Shown: positions 22,139-28,964 of the stretch, piece by piece
Numbering within the stretch: the stretch's first letter is position 1
Layout of the letters: every line of letters begins with the position of its first letter
NCBI GenBank assembly: GCA_021323945.1
Contig: JAJPKA010000017.1
Span: forward strand, 95,990 to 159,989
Source of the DNA: Pseudomonadota bacterium
Lineage (GTDB): Bacteria; Desulfobacterota; Binatia; Binatales; Binataceae
Reading direction: 5' to 3'
DNA: 64,000 nt
Position numbers and translations under genes: made by a program
The notes under the pieces: generated by a model
The model's database searches: none
Told to the model about the DNA's origin: nothing
The model's input: only the letters and a program-made list of their open reading frames with translations

Positions 22139-22612
22139 ATGTTGCCACGTGTTCATGTGCATTTGAAGTCGGTTGACCTAGAGGCGGCGCGCGAGTTTTA
22201 TCGCCGATTTCTCGGTATCGAGCCGGTTAAGGATAAGCCGGATCATGTTAAGTTTCTTGTACCATTCGCCCCGCTGAATCTGGTCATTTCTCCAGCACGT
22301 TCTGATCTGGCAGCCCAGCGGAGCGCTGCTGTCAATCATTTGGGAATCGAACTCGCGTCCAGCGCGGCAGTTGAGGAGCATTTGACCCGGGTCAAGCAAC
22401 GAGGCGTCAAGGTCCGAGAACAACTTAATGTGAATTGCTGCTACGCGAACCAATCAAAGTTTTGGGTGATCGATCCCGATGGCGTCGAGTGGGAAGTATA
22501 CCATGTCAACTACGACTTGGCTGAAAAGCACGGCGGCGCCATTGAAAGGCATAAGAACGAGGACTGCTGCGGGGGCGAGGCCGATCGTCCAGTTGCTGGG
22601 CCGCCTGGATGA
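22139..22612 (+). CDS. ArsI/CadI-family vicinal-oxygen-chelate dioxygenase
   Basis: A 157-residue glyoxalase-fold protein closely patterned on ArsI/CadI: N-terminal VHVHLKSVDLEAAREFY, HLGIELASS, and the thiol motif NCCYANQSKFWVIDPDGVEWEVY. In ArsI the CC pair binds trivalent organoarsenicals and a His/His/Glu site holds Fe(II), giving C-As bond cleavage; CadI relatives are cadmium-induced. Here the His residues, the CC pair and the final Glu are all present. A second CC lies near the C-terminus (EDCCGG). GGAGG precedes ATG 22139. No arsR, arsM or arsenic transporter is nearby, so the arsenic role is inference from the family. Confidence 0.85.
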   Translation: MLPRVHVHLKSVDLEAAREFYRRFLGIEPVKDKPDHVKFLVPFAPLNLVISPARSDLAAQRSAAVNHLGIELASSAAVEEHLTRVKQRGVKVREQLNVNCCYANQSKFWVIDPDGVEWEVYHVNYDLAEKHGGAIERHKNEDCCGGEADRPVAGPPG

Positions 22613-23262
22613 ACACGTGGGATCTATTCCAATGCTGTAGGCGGTCGTCCCCCATTGCTCGGCTTCGACAAGCGGGGGCTATACCGGGCACGACAAGGCT
22701 TATCCGCTAAGCGGACCGATTAGCAGCCAGCCATACTGAACCCGCCGGCAACTGTCTGGTCGCGCTATGAGCTTCGGGAGGCGTCGCGTCAGGAGGACAC
22801 GATCCTTTGCTCAAGGGATGACGGCTTTGGCGCGCCGGATTTGATGACGAGACCGCATCGCGGCTGCCGCTTTGAAATGTCGTTGAGTTGGGCGGGATGT
22901 GCTCAAGGCAAGATAAGGTGGCAAACAGCGGGTTGTGACCGGCTCGAGACTTCTAAGCGATCGCTGAAGCCTGACGGCCCTGCTGATCCCCTTGCGGGCA
23001 ACATTTGGCTAGCACGGCTCGGCGAGCTTGCAACCTGAGATAGTTAACGGGCAACATTCCTCTCACGGATGGTTGCCGGCCCTTAGAGACAGTGGCCGGA
23101 CTAACGCCTGAAGCGTGCGAGGCAACGACGCATCTCTCCGATTACAATCTCAACCTCTCTCCCCACTTCTGAGGGTAAGAACCTCACCAGGAAGTCTTTT
23201 TGACCAGCTCTGGCGCTAGCCTATTAAGCTCAATAGGATTTCAGCGCGACGGAGGTTGCCAT
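22613..23262. other. Gene-free interval of about 650 bases
   Basis: There is no convincing gene on either strand. A 65-residue frame (22841-23038) has no ribosome site or recognisable pattern. The last 20 bases hold the GGAGG ribosome site of the next gene. Confidence 0.35.
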
Positions 23263-24477
23263 ATGGCGCAACTCAAGCATGTGTTGGACGGGTATAAAGT
23301 TCTCGACTTTACCCAGGTTTTGGCCGGCCCAACTACGACACGAATGATGGCGGAGATGGGAGCCGAGATTATCAAGGTCGAACTCGCGCCCAACGGTGAC
23401 CCTAGCCGTGCTTTGCCGTTTCTCAGAGATGGCCGCAGTGCCTACTATGTCCAGCAGAATCGCGGCAAGAAGAGCCTGTGTGTCGATATCAAAAACCCGG
23501 TCGGTCTGGAGATCATTAAGGCGCTCATCCCCAAAATGGACGTAATGATCGAAAACTACGCCCCGGGGGTCATCGCGCGGACAGGACTCGATTATCAAAC
23601 CGTCAAGGCGTTGAATCCCAGAATCGTCATGTGCTCGATCTCGAGTCTTGGCCAGGATGGGCCATTGGCTAATCGACCGGGCTACGACACCATCGGGGCG
23701 GCTTATGCCGGGGTGCTCGATATGTGTGGTTATCCCGATCGCGCACCGGTTTTTCCGGCACTCGGCATTGGCGATGTCAGCACCGGCGTCCATGCTCTGG
23801 CCGCGATTACCGCGGCCCTTCTCGGACGCGAGCGTTCTGGTGAGGGGCAATATGTCCAGACATCACTGCTTGACTGCTATTTTGGCTATCACGAACTGAA
23901 CGTGCAGATGCTAAGCGCCAGCGGGGGGACCATGAAGCCGCGCCGGACCGGTGAGCACCATTACATGGTTGCACCCGCTGGGATGTTCAAAGGCAAGCAC
24001 ACTTACCTGCTGATTATCGGGGGTCTCGATCGCCAGTGGCCGTCGATGTGTCATGCGATGGAGCGACCAGATCTGATCGAGGATCCGCGTTTCAACACGC
24101 TCGCAGCCCGCGCGAAAAATAGAGAGGAAGTGATTCAGATCGTGCAGGACTGGGTTGACACGCATGAAGACGAAGAGGTCGAGCGGGCATTGGAAAAGTA
24201 TCGGGTGCCCTTTGCTCCAGCATTGACCGTCGAGCAGGCGATGAATCATCCGCATCTGCGGCAGCGTCGCACGGTTAGAAGCATCCGCGATCGGTTTCTG
24301 GGGGAATTCGAGATTCCGGGTTTTCCGCTCCGCTTTTCCGGGTACGGTGAACTCGAACTGCAAGCACCGACACTTGGCGAACACAACATGCCGATCCTGA
24401 CTGAGTATCTTGGCTATTCGCCGGCGCAGGTCGAGCAGCTGGAGGCAATGGGCGTTCTCAGGCGTGGCCCTCGCTGA
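23263..24477 (+). CDS. CaiB/BaiF-type class III CoA transferase
   Basis: 404 residues. Family features are YKVLDFTQVLAGPTTTRMMAEMGAEIIKVE, the catalytic Asp171 in LGIGDVSTG, the EGQYVQTSLLDC strand and the closing helix YSPAQVEQLEAMGVL. The frame extends 21 residues upstream, but GGAGG at 23251-23255 fixes ATG 23263. It reads toward the P450 gene, 317 bases away. The exact acyl donor and acceptor cannot be deduced. Confidence 0.91.
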   Translation: MAQLKHVLDGYKVLDFTQVLAGPTTTRMMAEMGAEIIKVELAPNGDPSRALPFLRDGRSAYYVQQNRGKKSLCVDIKNPVGLEIIKALIPKMDVMIENYAPGVIARTGLDYQTVKALNPRIVMCSISSLGQDGPLANRPGYDTIGAAYAGVLDMCGYPDRAPVFPALGIGDVSTGVHALAAITAALLGRERSGEGQYVQTSLLDCYFGYHELNVQMLSASGGTMKPRRTGEHHYMVAPAGMFKGKHTYLLIIGGLDRQWPSMCHAMERPDLIEDPRFNTLAARAKNREEVIQIVQDWVDTHEDEEVERALEKYRVPFAPALTVEQAMNHPHLRQRRTVRSIRDRFLGEFEIPGFPLRFSGYGELELQAPTLGEHNMPILTEYLGYSPAQVEQLEAMGVLRRGPR

Positions 24478-24794
24478 GTATCGGACGAGCGTTGTCTGCT
24501 TTCCGCGTCGTCAAGCGACCTACTGACTTTGGCGCCGCTTATCGCCAACTCAATTCAGGGTGGGCGGCGCCGCAATTTAAGCCGTTCAAAAAGCCAGCCA
24601 TTGGGAAATCCCAGGAGTTTTTTCCAACCGCTCTTATCAATTGTTGGGCCTTTACCGCGCCGGTGCGAAAGAGCTTGACGACCGGGAATCAGAAGGTTAA
24701 TTTCCTCGAGAATACTGTTGCATGAAGAAATAATTTAACATTGCAACCATCTTCTCCGTGCATGGTCCGAGTTTAACTCTTCTCGGGGGCACCA
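24478..24794. other. Intergenic region before P450 gene
   Basis: No gene is supported. The DNA just before the P450 start is AT-richer (around 24700-24770) and may hold its promoter, but I see no clear -35/-10 pair. Confidence 0.3.
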
Positions 24795-26039
24795 ATGGAT
24801 TACCGCGAAATCGATGCAGCCTTAACTGATCCTGGGTTCTTCGTTGATCACGATCCTCACCCATTATGGAAGGTTTTGCGCGAAAATGACCCGATTCATT
24901 GGACCGACGATGCTCGCCACGGATTTTGGTCCGTAACACGCTATGAGGACATCGTCACTGTGGTAAGCGAGCCCACGCTGTTCAGTTCGGCGTTTCTCAT
25001 CTCCATTCCCTCATCGGCTGAAATGGAGCGACTGACACCGGTCATGCTGGGCTCAGGAGAAATGATGCTGATGACGGACCCGCCTCTGCATGCTGTCATG
25101 CGCCGGGCGTTCAATCGGCTGATGTTGCCGCGCGCGGTAGGCCGCTACGAAACCCCGGGGCATTTACTGGTCCAGGAGATTTTGGCAGAAGCAGCCTCAC
25201 GGGGCGAATGTGATTTTGTGGTCGATGTTGCGGCGCGGCTGCCGATGGCTTTTATCTGTCAGATCATGGGAATCCCGCGCTCGGATTGGCCGGACATGTT
25301 CAGATGGGGCAATATGGTGGCGGGTAACGACGACCCTGAGTATCAAGTCGAATCAGGCTCGCCTTTGGATACGCGTCAGGAGGGATCGCGCCGCATCGGA
25401 AATTACTGTGTAGCTGCCGCGCTTGAACGTCGTGGCCGCGAAGGTGAGGACTTGCTGACGGTGCTCGGCAATGCGACTATCAATGGTCGGTTGCTGACCA
25501 ATTCCGAGCTTGCTCACAACGGGCTTCTTTATGTAGGCGCAGGACTGGAGACAACGCGAAATGCGATATCAGCAGGTCTCCTGGCCCTCCTGCAGCATCC
25601 CGAGCAGCTCGATCGTTTGCTCGAACATCCCCAGATCATGCCAACGGCGGTGGAAGAAATTCTGCGATGGACTAGCCCGGTAACCCACTTTGCGCGAGTC
25701 GCGACTGCGGACACGGAATTAGGTGGCCGGCGGATCCGTGCTGGCGAGCGGCTGGCTCTGTGGTTCCCTTCGGCCAATCGTGATGAGGCGGTGTTCGAGA
25801 ATCCCTATACCTTTGATGTTGCGCGAACACCCAATGAGCACCTGGCGTTCAGCCGAGGTGAGCACTTCTGTGCGGGCGCACATCTGGCGCGCCTCGAACT
25901 GCGGCTGACGTTGCAGGCACTCATGCCCCGGATAAAGCAGATCGAAGTCATCGGCAAGATCGAACGATTGCGTTCCAACTTCCTCGCCGGCATTAAACAT
26001 ATGCCAGTGCGTTTCAAGAAAACGGAGCTCACTGCCTGA
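24795..26039 (+). CDS. Cytochrome P450
   Basis: A soluble bacterial P450 of 414 residues. The I-helix oxygen-activation motif reads VGAGLETTRNAI, the ExxR pair is EEILR, and the heme loop is FSRGEHFCAGAHLARLE with Cys359 as the thiolate ligand. In that loop the second position of the usual FGxGxHxCxG is Ser. The closing AGIKHMPVRF is typical of CYP families acting on fatty acids, terpenes or sterols (as in mycobacterial CYP125/142-like enzymes). No ferredoxin or reductase gene is adjacent. It precedes the CmcJ/NvfI-type gene on the same strand. Confidence 0.92.
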   Translation: MDYREIDAALTDPGFFVDHDPHPLWKVLRENDPIHWTDDARHGFWSVTRYEDIVTVVSEPTLFSSAFLISIPSSAEMERLTPVMLGSGEMMLMTDPPLHAVMRRAFNRLMLPRAVGRYETPGHLLVQEILAEAASRGECDFVVDVAARLPMAFICQIMGIPRSDWPDMFRWGNMVAGNDDPEYQVESGSPLDTRQEGSRRIGNYCVAAALERRGREGEDLLTVLGNATINGRLLTNSELAHNGLLYVGAGLETTRNAISAGLLALLQHPEQLDRLLEHPQIMPTAVEEILRWTSPVTHFARVATADTELGGRRIRAGERLALWFPSANRDEAVFENPYTFDVARTPNEHLAFSRGEHFCAGAHLARLELRLTLQALMPRIKQIEVIGKIERLRSNFLAGIKHMPVRFKKTELTA

Positions 26040-26355
26040 GCTCACCGGCACCTCCGGCACCGTTGCGCGGCAGGGGCACGCGCAATGGAATCTCGATGGG
26101 TTCCATTCGCAAAGGATGAGCGCCAGCCTGAAACACCCTGCAGAGATGTCTCGCGCCAGCTGCTGGCCTTGAGCATAACCTTCCAGATTGGCTAGCTTAA
26201 GCTCGTGCATGACACGTCACGTTGGCAAGATCGAGTTTTGCTAGTGTCGATTCACTACGTTAGGAAGCGTCGTGGTGGGATTGATCAGCCGACGCAAACC
26301 TTAGGAATATAAGCCCTTGGAAGGGTGGGTTAATTTAACCAGCTAGAGGGACTTT
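26040..26355. other. Intergenic region
   Basis: Spacer between the P450 and the CmcJ/NvfI-type gene. A minus-strand frame covers part of it but mainly shadows the end of the P450 gene. No supported gene or terminator is seen; GAGGGA before 26356 is the next ribosome site. Confidence 0.35.
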
Positions 26356-27633
26356 ATGGACCAGCTCAATTCTATCGAAGACCGTGCTGCGGGAAGTACC
26401 GGAAAGGCTTCTTCAGTCTACGTTCCACCCATCCAACGTACCAAAGGCCAGCCCGCCCCGATCGCGGCGAACGGTGGTTTGTCCTATATGGCGCTCGATC
26501 GCAACGGCGATGCTGGAACGGCTGCAGCGACTGAGGCCGCTCTCCGCCAGATTGCAGAGGGAAGAGGGCAAGCCGTCATCGACCTGCTGGACAAAGCCCC
26601 TCCAGGCCCCATTAGGACAAAGTGGGGTCTCGGGTTTCGTAGTTACTCAGAATGCCTGGAGTATATAGGCGCCAACAACATTAAGGCGCCCGAAGGCGGC
26701 ATAGCGCTTCCGCTGCGTTACACCATTTACGAGGAGCCCTCTTACTCGGTGGTACCCTCAAATGCTCTTTGGCGGGATCCGACACGTCAGGCTGAGGCGA
26801 AAGCGTTGCGCAAGGAAGAACAGGATATGGGTCGGCGTTCGCTGTATTTCCCGCAAATCTTGCGAGACGCTCGGCGAATTCGCGAGTACTACCCGGAGCT
26901 TTCGCTAAATACGCCGCAATGCATGGACAAGCTCGGCCTTGCCTTGGCGTACTGCGAGTCCAAGTGCAAGAACTTTTATGACGCAGCGGAAGTCGAACGC
27001 GTCTTTTACCCTGAGATGGAAAAACTTCTGTTGGAGTTTTTCCCCGACGCGACCGACGCGCTCGTCTATAATCACGACGTGTTTGACAAGGACTATACGG
27101 GTGACCGCACTGAGGATCAGGACAACAAAAACCCAGGCGTAAACGCCAACTATGCCTATCTGGTCCACAACGATCTGACTGACAACAGCGGCCGTGTGCG
27201 TTGCCGCGAGCTGCTCACCCGCAATCTACGAAACTTCGGGCGCGAGCAGCACTACACCGAGGAAGAAGCGGACGCCAAGATGTCGCGCCGTTTTATGTCA
27301 ATCAATCTCGCGAAGCCCATTGAGACCGTCCGGCAGAACCCCTTTGTGCTGTGTGCCTGGCCCTCCTTCGCGGATCAGCCTTACATTACGCATTATCGGA
27401 TCTATGATGACCGGGTCGGTGAAACTGCTCGTTTCACTTACCGCCCCAGCCACGAATGGTACTGGTTTCCGCTGCAGAAGCCGACTGAGGTTTCGATGCT
27501 CAAGTGCTACGACTCCATAACGGACGGTTCTGTCTCACGATGGTCTTTCCACAGTGCATGCATCGATCCGAGCGCGCCTGCTGACGCACCTTGCCGCAAG
27601 AACGTGGTGGTCCGCGCGTTCGTGTTCTTCTGA
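26356..27633 (+). CDS. CmcJ/NvfI-family oxidoreductase
   Basis: A 425-residue protein that I place in the CmcJ/NvfI (AsaB-like) family. The evidence is the H-x-D element (VHNDLTDNSG), then FMSINLAKPIETVRQNPFVLC, the basic strand near RIYDDRVGETARFTYRPSHEWYWFP, and the conserved ending FHSACIDPSAPADAPCRKNV with VRAFVFF. NvfI is an Fe(II)/2-oxoglutarate enzyme, and CmcJ partners CmcI in cephamycin 7-methoxylation. The reaction here is unknown. An unusually long N-terminal part of about 200 residues precedes the core. GAGGGA gives the start ATG 26356. The P450 gene lies upstream on the same strand. Confidence 0.75.
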   Translation: MDQLNSIEDRAAGSTGKASSVYVPPIQRTKGQPAPIAANGGLSYMALDRNGDAGTAAATEAALRQIAEGRGQAVIDLLDKAPPGPIRTKWGLGFRSYSECLEYIGANNIKAPEGGIALPLRYTIYEEPSYSVVPSNALWRDPTRQAEAKALRKEEQDMGRRSLYFPQILRDARRIREYYPELSLNTPQCMDKLGLALAYCESKCKNFYDAAEVERVFYPEMEKLLLEFFPDATDALVYNHDVFDKDYTGDRTEDQDNKNPGVNANYAYLVHNDLTDNSGRVRCRELLTRNLRNFGREQHYTEEEADAKMSRRFMSINLAKPIETVRQNPFVLCAWPSFADQPYITHYRIYDDRVGETARFTYRPSHEWYWFPLQKPTEVSMLKCYDSITDGSVSRWSFHSACIDPSAPADAPCRKNVVVRAFVFF

Positions 27634-27999
27634 GCCGGGAGTGGCGGCTATCGTCAGCGTGTACGCTCGAACTCTCGCGCGAGTCATAAGCAGTAGCGCG
27701 CGGCGGCTTTGTGTGAAATTGCGTCCGCCTTATGCAACGCGCTCGTCGCACCGCCCACGAAGGTCTGCAAGACGGTGAACGGATTATTGGCTTCGACCGT
27801 GCCGGGTGCCTTTGAGACTTTCAGAGAAGAAAATATCAGGGGTGCCCGTGGTCGTATCGGGCACAACTCAACAGGCGAGCGACAAAAGCACAGATTCGTT
27901 CGGAATAACGTTCGGATTAGAACCCGCCGGGGTCGCGCGCTCAAAGAGCGCGTTGAACTAATCAGATGTGCACAAGCGGGCGCCTGGCAAGGGAGGACA
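27634..27999. other. Convergent intergenic region with two hairpins
   Basis: There is no supported gene. Two stem-loops lie here: GTGCCCG (27842-27848) with CGGGCAC (27858-27864), and CGCGCTC (27936-27942) with GAGCGCG (27946-27952) around AAA. Both lie between converging genes and may end transcription, although neither has a T-tract. Confidence 0.4.
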
Positions 28000-28260
28000 T
28001 CAGAGCAGAACCGGCGTTACAATATGCCCTATTGCGCGGTCGATGTCAGCTTCGGTGGCCTGACGAAATAGGTCGGTCGGAGATTCGCATTTAAGACATT
28101 GGCGGAATTCGGCCTCGTAGATCTGACGCTCACCTTCACTCAGCTGATAACGAATCAGGGCGCCGTCGAGCTCCGCCTTTTCCTGCTCAGTCATGGCGTA
28201 ATGGACCCATCCACAGGCGCCACACGCCAGTAGCTTTCGATTGGTGAGTGATCTGGGCAT
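28000..28260 (-). CDS. Small zinc-ribbon-like hypothetical protein
   Basis: 86 residues with a paired-cysteine pattern: ACGACGWVHYAM near the start and QCLKCESP near residue 54, which would bind one zinc ion in a ribbon. A basic N-terminus (MPRSLTNRKLL) and an acidic helical centre complete it. Small proteins with this CxxCGWVHY motif are widespread but uncharacterised. ATG 28260 is the only sensible start. It is 56 bases downstream of the beta-sandwich protein gene on the same strand. Confidence 0.6.
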   Translation of the reverse strand: MPRSLTNRKLLACGACGWVHYAMTEQEKAELDGALIRYQLSEGERQIYEAEFRQCLKCESPTDLFRQATEADIDRAIGHIVTPVLL

Positions 28261-28316
28261 TCTTTGCAGGTGGCTCCGTATAAATTTAAACGGCCACCCG
28301 TGGATTCTATCGCTGG

Positions 28317-28964
28317 TCAGCCCAGAACGATAGAGAAATTCTTGCCTTGGTTATTGTCCCAGCGAACAAACTCGTCGCCCTCAATCGGCGTATTGCTCCG
28401 CAGAAGCTGAAAACAATATTCGACGGTTGCACCGCGAGGACCCCATACGCGTCCGACAAAACGGCGGGGCAGCGGCACGGTCTGCACGAGTTCGTAAATC
28501 GCTTCGTCGGCCAAGCCCTCTCCCTCGATATCATGACCGGGCGCATTGGCCGGTACCTGTAACGGCAGCCCCTCGAGGTGTGCCTGCGTCCAATTCGGAG
28601 CTGCCCATCCACCTACGCTCCAGAGGACCCGGACCTCGGTTATCTGGCCCTCGTGATCGAGATATTCGACTTCGTTCGAAACGATCTCTTCGGTATAGAT
28701 CTGCGTAAAACCTTCGTGATGCTCGCCGCCGCCGCCGAAATGATAATGCAGCAGATAATTGGGCTTGCCGTCGAGATAACGGGGAATTTCGATTATCGCC
28801 TGCCGGACACGCGGGTGCGTCCCCGACACCACCTGCATCACTTCGGCTTCATCTTTGGCATTACTGAAGTCGGCCGCAGTACCAATCGGAGACCAGGTGT
28901 ACCTAATCTCGACGCTATCGATACGATCGTTTGGATCGACCCAAACTTTTGCCATCTGGAACAT
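28317..28964 (-). CDS. Hypothetical protein, tandem beta-sandwich (CBM-like) pattern
   Basis: 215 residues with no signal peptide. Two halves look related: the first contains VEIRYTWSP and PNYLLHYHFGG, the second TEVRVLWSVGGWAAPNW and TVEYCFQLLRSN, ending in RWDNNQGKNFSIVL, which resembles the last strand of starch-binding or Ig-like carbohydrate modules. That suggests two beta-sandwich domains binding a sugar or polymer inside the cell, or a subunit of a larger complex. GAGGAG nine bases upstream fixes ATG 28964. It is the first gene of a two-gene unit with the zinc-ribbon protein. I do not recognise a named family. Confidence 0.6.
   Translation of the reverse strand: MFQMAKVWVDPNDRIDSVEIRYTWSPIGTAADFSNAKDEAEVMQVVSGTHPRVRQAIIEIPRYLDGKPNYLLHYHFGGGGEHHEGFTQIYTEEIVSNEVEYLDHEGQITEVRVLWSVGGWAAPNWTQAHLEGLPLQVPANAPGHDIEGEGLADEAIYELVQTVPLPRRFVGRVWGPRGATVEYCFQLLRSNTPIEGDEFVRWDNNQGKNFSIVLG

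Follow-up and report, generated by a model that had tools for sequence, protein, structure and literature searches.

A long bacterial form of the CmcJ/NvfI-family oxygenases, probably acting without the cytochrome P450 encoded beside it

When a cytochrome P450 gene is followed on the same strand by a gene of the CmcJ/NvfI oxygenase family, and a CoA transferase lies close by, do the two oxidizing enzymes act in succession on one lipid or terpenoid, as the initial annotation of this locus supposed, or does the oxygenase serve a purpose of its own? I addressed this question for one such pair in a 64,000-nucleotide stretch of bacterial DNA (contig JAJPKA010000017.1; this whole stretch is the window, and positions are counted along it). 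Both open reading frames stand where they had been placed, each matches the profile of its family (PF00067 and NF041278, respectively), and the CoA transferase proves to be a type III gene. The features of the locus are as follows.

23200-24477, + strand: type III CoA-transferase gene upstream of the P450, annotated by Pfam profile
24795..26039, + strand: cytochrome P450, 414 aa, CYP125/CYP124-like (PF00067; 8vxi CYP125MRCA)
26040..26355, + strand: intergenic gap of 316 bases from P450 to oxygenase, containing GAGGGA
26356..27633, + strand: long-form CmcJ/NvfI-family Fe(II)/2-oxoglutarate (2OG) oxygenase, 425 aa (NF041278, 131.1 bits; NvfI fold match, Z 25.6)
26356..26679, + strand: N-terminal extension, residues 1-108 (1-20 variable), unmatched in the NvfI and CTB9 alignments
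26680..27630, + strand: NvfI-like jelly-roll core, residues 109-425, from the predicted model against solved structures
27166..27174, + strand: H271-N272-D273, putative HxD metal ligands, from conservation and alignment with H-C-D of NvfI
27550..27552, + strand: H399, putative distal His metal ligand, aligned with NvfI chain residue 270
27595..27615, + strand: R414 to R420, candidate 2OG carboxylate anchors, both Arg invariant where present

The oxygenase clearly belongs to the CmcJ/NvfI family. Over residues 187-425 it scores 131.1 bits against NCBIfam NF041278 (cut-off 80), and the same model is matched at E 1e-5 by 69/69 rows of an alignment of the long form. For the 425-residue protein, searches of Pfam (E 0.01) and PHROGs (0.1) gave no match, and NvfI is likewise described as lacking a Pfam domain (PMC11109268). 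An AlphaFold2 model built from the 69 long-form sequences (mean pLDDT 84.3, pTM 0.83) predicts an NvfI-like jelly-roll fold: among solved structures NvfI comes first (Z 24.7-25.6, the upper value for 7emz), followed by CTB9 (Z 22.9-23.1), and the next, PtlH, reaches only 9.8. The structural alignments with NvfI and CTB9 begin at residue 109-113 and run to 425.

An HxD element and a downstream basic residue had been read from the sequence; HND at 271-273 and two such basic residues, R414 and R420, are indeed present, and to them can be added a second histidine ligand, H399, which had gone unmentioned. H271 and D273 occur in 69/69 long-form rows, H399 in 67/67 rows having a letter at that position, and R414 and R420 together in 68/68 such rows. 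A profile composed mostly of short bacterial forms aligns with most of the length of NvfI and CTB9, placing the H-C-D of NvfI opposite H-N-D in the family and matching H399 with the distal His of NvfI. Judged by alignment and conservation, the putative metal ligands H271, D273 and H399 thus fit the 2-His-1-carboxylate pattern, and R414 and R420 are candidate 2OG anchors.

The long N-terminal extension was also correctly recognized, as residues 1-108 precede the NvfI-like core and are matched neither by NvfI or CTB9 in the structural alignments nor by any of the short forms examined. The alignment on which these counts rest comprises the window protein and 68 of 79 long-form loci; left out were L042, L104 and L111 (gene in two frames), L051 (internal stop), L043, L044, L108 and L112 (partial), and L060, L068 and L071 (close duplicates). 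L042 and L104, equal in length and coordinates, are probably one contig; these two and L111 carry the long form in two frames, and L051 carries it with an internal stop, through either assembly error or decay. At least 80 of the 88 positions from 21 to 108 are filled in every one of the 69 rows. The mean frequency of the commonest residue is 0.39 in residues 1-20 and 0.74-0.83 in residues 21-110; from residue 187 onward it is 0.88-0.93. In the whole-protein model residues 51-110 have block pLDDT values of 87-95, and residues 18-113 folded alone (17 rows) give a low-confidence model (pLDDT 54), so a new fold is not claimed for the extension. These predictions are most simply read as an extension that packs against the core.

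How widely is the long form distributed, and what has kept it so similar? One scan of a genome collection returned 67 loci with full or partial relatives, 68-92% identical in their best segment, which makes the observation more than chance, and all 67 record titles are marked MAG; by title most hosts are Pseudomonadota or Acidobacteriota, and a few are called Deltaproteobacteria. Counting the window's own genome, the long form is present at 75% identity or more in 11/57 near relatives and in 2/395 genomes drawn from the phylum. It was found on no viral contig; the matches in 12 plasmid records were all to short forms, and each covered less than 80% of the query. Across Pseudomonadota and Acidobacteriota, aligned copies are 68-84% identical to the window protein. 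In 16 comparisons dN was 0.09-0.24 and dS ran from 1.4 to infinite (that is, high or saturated), and third-position GC of the copies ranged from 0.40 to 0.93. With dN low and dS high or saturated, the conservation reflects strong purifying selection rather than recent spread.

Identity of the oxygenase tracks host distance only weakly: it is 84% in the same genus, 80-84% in the same family (full copies) and 76-80% in family f5, and RecA in the same carriers gives 95%, 89-94% and 75-77%, respectively. A tree of the long form was built from 72 rows. AU tests did not reject trees that keep together family f1 (p 0.378), f1 with f5 (p 0.213) or the 13 Acidobacteriota rows (p 0.383). As host-grouped trees pass these tests, horizontal transfer of the long form is not claimed, and its patchy occurrence could also stem from loss.

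If the oxygenase worked with a dedicated partner, one might look for that partner beside it. I compared the 79 long-form loci, 58 of which have at least 1.5 kb on both sides, and no widely shared neighbour family was found among them. The largest cluster of neighbours at 50% identity reaches 18 of 82 stretches (67 loci, 14 loci and part of the window). The 216 flanking ORFs in the 79 loci reduce to 182 cluster representatives; 31 short or very long ones were dropped by hand and the other 151 scanned against Pfam, where no family exceeded 4/88 or 4/63 members; TauD totalled 5/151 and short-chain dehydrogenases 6/151. In three loci of the 79 (L038:10816-11814, L041:1927-2862 and L047:5743-6789) a second protein of the NvfI family is encoded no more than about 2 kb away from the long form; it is divergent, with 25-26% identity to the window protein. 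In the window itself, a VOC protein at 22139-22612 (+) scores 123.2 bits against an ArsI/CadI heavy-metal resistance model (cut-off 116), and a 215-residue ORF downstream of the oxygenase, at 28317-28964 (-), matches neither Pfam nor NCBIfam at E 0.01.

The P450 is itself a sound assignment (PF00067, E 3.4e-25, 89.2 bits against a gathering score of 22.8). The closest solved structures by sequence are CYP125 and CYP124, the best being 8vxi, CYP125MRCA (E 9.3e-106). CYP125 and CYP124 are steroid and branched-lipid hydroxylases. Given this resemblance, the P450, taken by itself, may plausibly act on a lipid-like substrate. A two-step pathway in which the P450 and the oxygenase oxidize a lipid or terpenoid, with a link to the CoA transferase, could draw on the same resemblance and on the arrangement of the genes, which are adjacent and on one strand with the CoA transferase upstream. 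The arrangement, however, does not hold in other genomes. Of the 79 oxygenase loci, no more than 6 have a P450 in the flanking sequence retrieved, 1.6-4.2 kb off and 28-32% identical to the window P450, and in none of the six is it the next gene, as other genes intervene; a motif search for P450 recovers five of these six loci, plus an 83-residue ORF in L074. Where closer P450s exist, at 78, 74 and 67% identity in G019, G021 and G007, the oxygenase is on a different contig in each, and the same-genus genome G001 has the oxygenase at 84% and no P450 above 46%.

Even in the window, 316 bases separate the two genes. A ribosome-binding-like GAGGGA (26346-26351) stands 4 bases before the oxygenase ATG; a promoter and terminator scan of 24400-28320 gave few sites, all weak, and no promoter-like site on the + strand within the gap, a result that speaks neither for nor against co-transcription. 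The CoA transferase went unseen beside the P450 in 10/11 other P450 loci, which extend only about 1.5 kb, and L121 has a 71-residue CoA transferase piece at the locus edge. A P450-oxygenase operon was rejected on synteny. The proposed pair of successive oxidations is therefore not supported by comparison with relatives, and a two-step pathway is very unlikely; the tie between the genes, which are probably unrelated in function, is adjacency in the window genome only and looks like a local coincidence. Adjacency in a single genome, as for the P450 here, can mislead guesses about pathways.

What, then, does the oxygenase do? Nearly the whole protein, with the extension, is under strong constraint, and no neighbour is common to the subfamily; both facts might suggest that its target is a macromolecule or some cell component of wide occurrence, be it protein, RNA, lipid or cofactor. 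The constraint fits an accessory function as well as a core one, but the patchy presence noted above speaks against a core process and favours an accessory small-molecule function, and NvfI and CmcJ are both assigned small-molecule substrates; I consider a macromolecular or shared target unlikely. The oxygenase might instead have given up 2OG-dependent oxygenation and become an isomerase or a non-catalytic relative. NvfE is a precedent: its paper describes it as a relative of 2OG dioxygenases that turned into an isomerase and no longer uses 2OG (PMC6030086). Conservation of the ligands is therefore not in itself proof of 2OG turnover, and the pocket positions of the long form are indeed unlike those of NvfI. 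Yet the triad and both candidate 2OG-binding arginines are invariant where present, and such a loss is highly improbable.

The explanation that I consider probable is an NvfI-fold Fe(II)/2OG oxygenase with one specific small-molecule substrate and no fixed partner gene, not paired with the P450. Iron would be bound by H271, D273 and H399, and 2OG probably anchored via R414 or R420; oxidative decarboxylation of 2OG would yield a ferryl species that removes a hydrogen atom from its specific substrate, a single small organic molecule, with hydroxylation as the likeliest outcome. The conserved N-terminal extension, together with inserts in the core, would lie against the core and probably make the pocket different from that of NvfI. 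The enzyme may work without a fixed partner gene, and no dedicated two-gene pathway with the P450 would be involved; that conserved neighbours are missing speaks only weakly for self-sufficiency, since pathway partners may be encoded elsewhere in the genome.

The family and fold of this oxygenase were already known. Among the open papers covered, I found no study of the long form, that is, of its extension, its conservation or its want of shared neighbours. It is mainly in natural-product clusters that NvfI-type oxygenases have been described. A bacterial branch that carries an extra N-terminal region and is very strongly conserved from end to end suggests a specific, selected function outside such clusters. 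Tentatively, and with somewhat less than even confidence, I suggest that the long form is a nearly isofunctional single-gene enzyme, almost unchanged in uncultured bacteria of several phyla, that carries out one specific oxidation, not described so far, on a compound shared by marine, host-associated and soil habitats. Since all 67 record titles are marked MAG, cultured strains may show the activity rarely or not at all.

The nearest relatives by structure are fungal. NvfI, the endoperoxidase of Aspergillus novofumigatus (7de2, 7emz, 7enb), shares the core fold at 20% identity over about 260 residues, and its HxD...H triad and two C-terminal arginines align with those of the long form, but it lacks the N-terminal extension. 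NvfI is Fe- and 2OG-dependent (PMC6030086). Its substrate-pocket residues include R118, H138, W199 and R201; by alignment the long form has F243, L274, Y347 and I/V349 in their place. With these residues replaced, endoperoxide formation is not implied, and the substrate of the long form is probably different from that of NvfI. At residue 346 (27391-27393), which adjoins the position aligned with W199, the window protein has His, against Asn in 67/69 long-form rows. The triad of NvfI is printed as His135-His137-Asp250 in the active-site section of its structure paper (PMC8292354). The PDB chain is numbered 20 ahead of the paper (the W199F change is at 219) and has Asp at paper position 137 and His at 250, so these two printed residue names look swapped.

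CTB9, the 2OG dioxygenase of the cercosporin pathway (7eus, 7eut, 7euu), likewise shares the core fold and an aligned HxD...H; it too is a fungal natural-product enzyme, and over the range aligned it shows no N-terminal extension. CmcJ, of the cephamycin cluster, is named in the same NCBIfam model as the long form, a likeness by model name rather than by alignment; it acts with the methyltransferase CmcI in one cluster, and recombinant CmcJ had not been studied according to a 2018 review (PMC6097109). The short-form bacterial CmcJ/NvfI proteins, two of which are carried by the window's own genome (G000:C11 and G000:C15), are 27-38% identical to the long form over about residues 188-425 and share its HxD...H and Arg pattern. 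They are mostly 249-298 aa in length and lack the extension, and their segments NVWRPI and VCDA are replaced by NLAKPM/I and LCAW in the long form.
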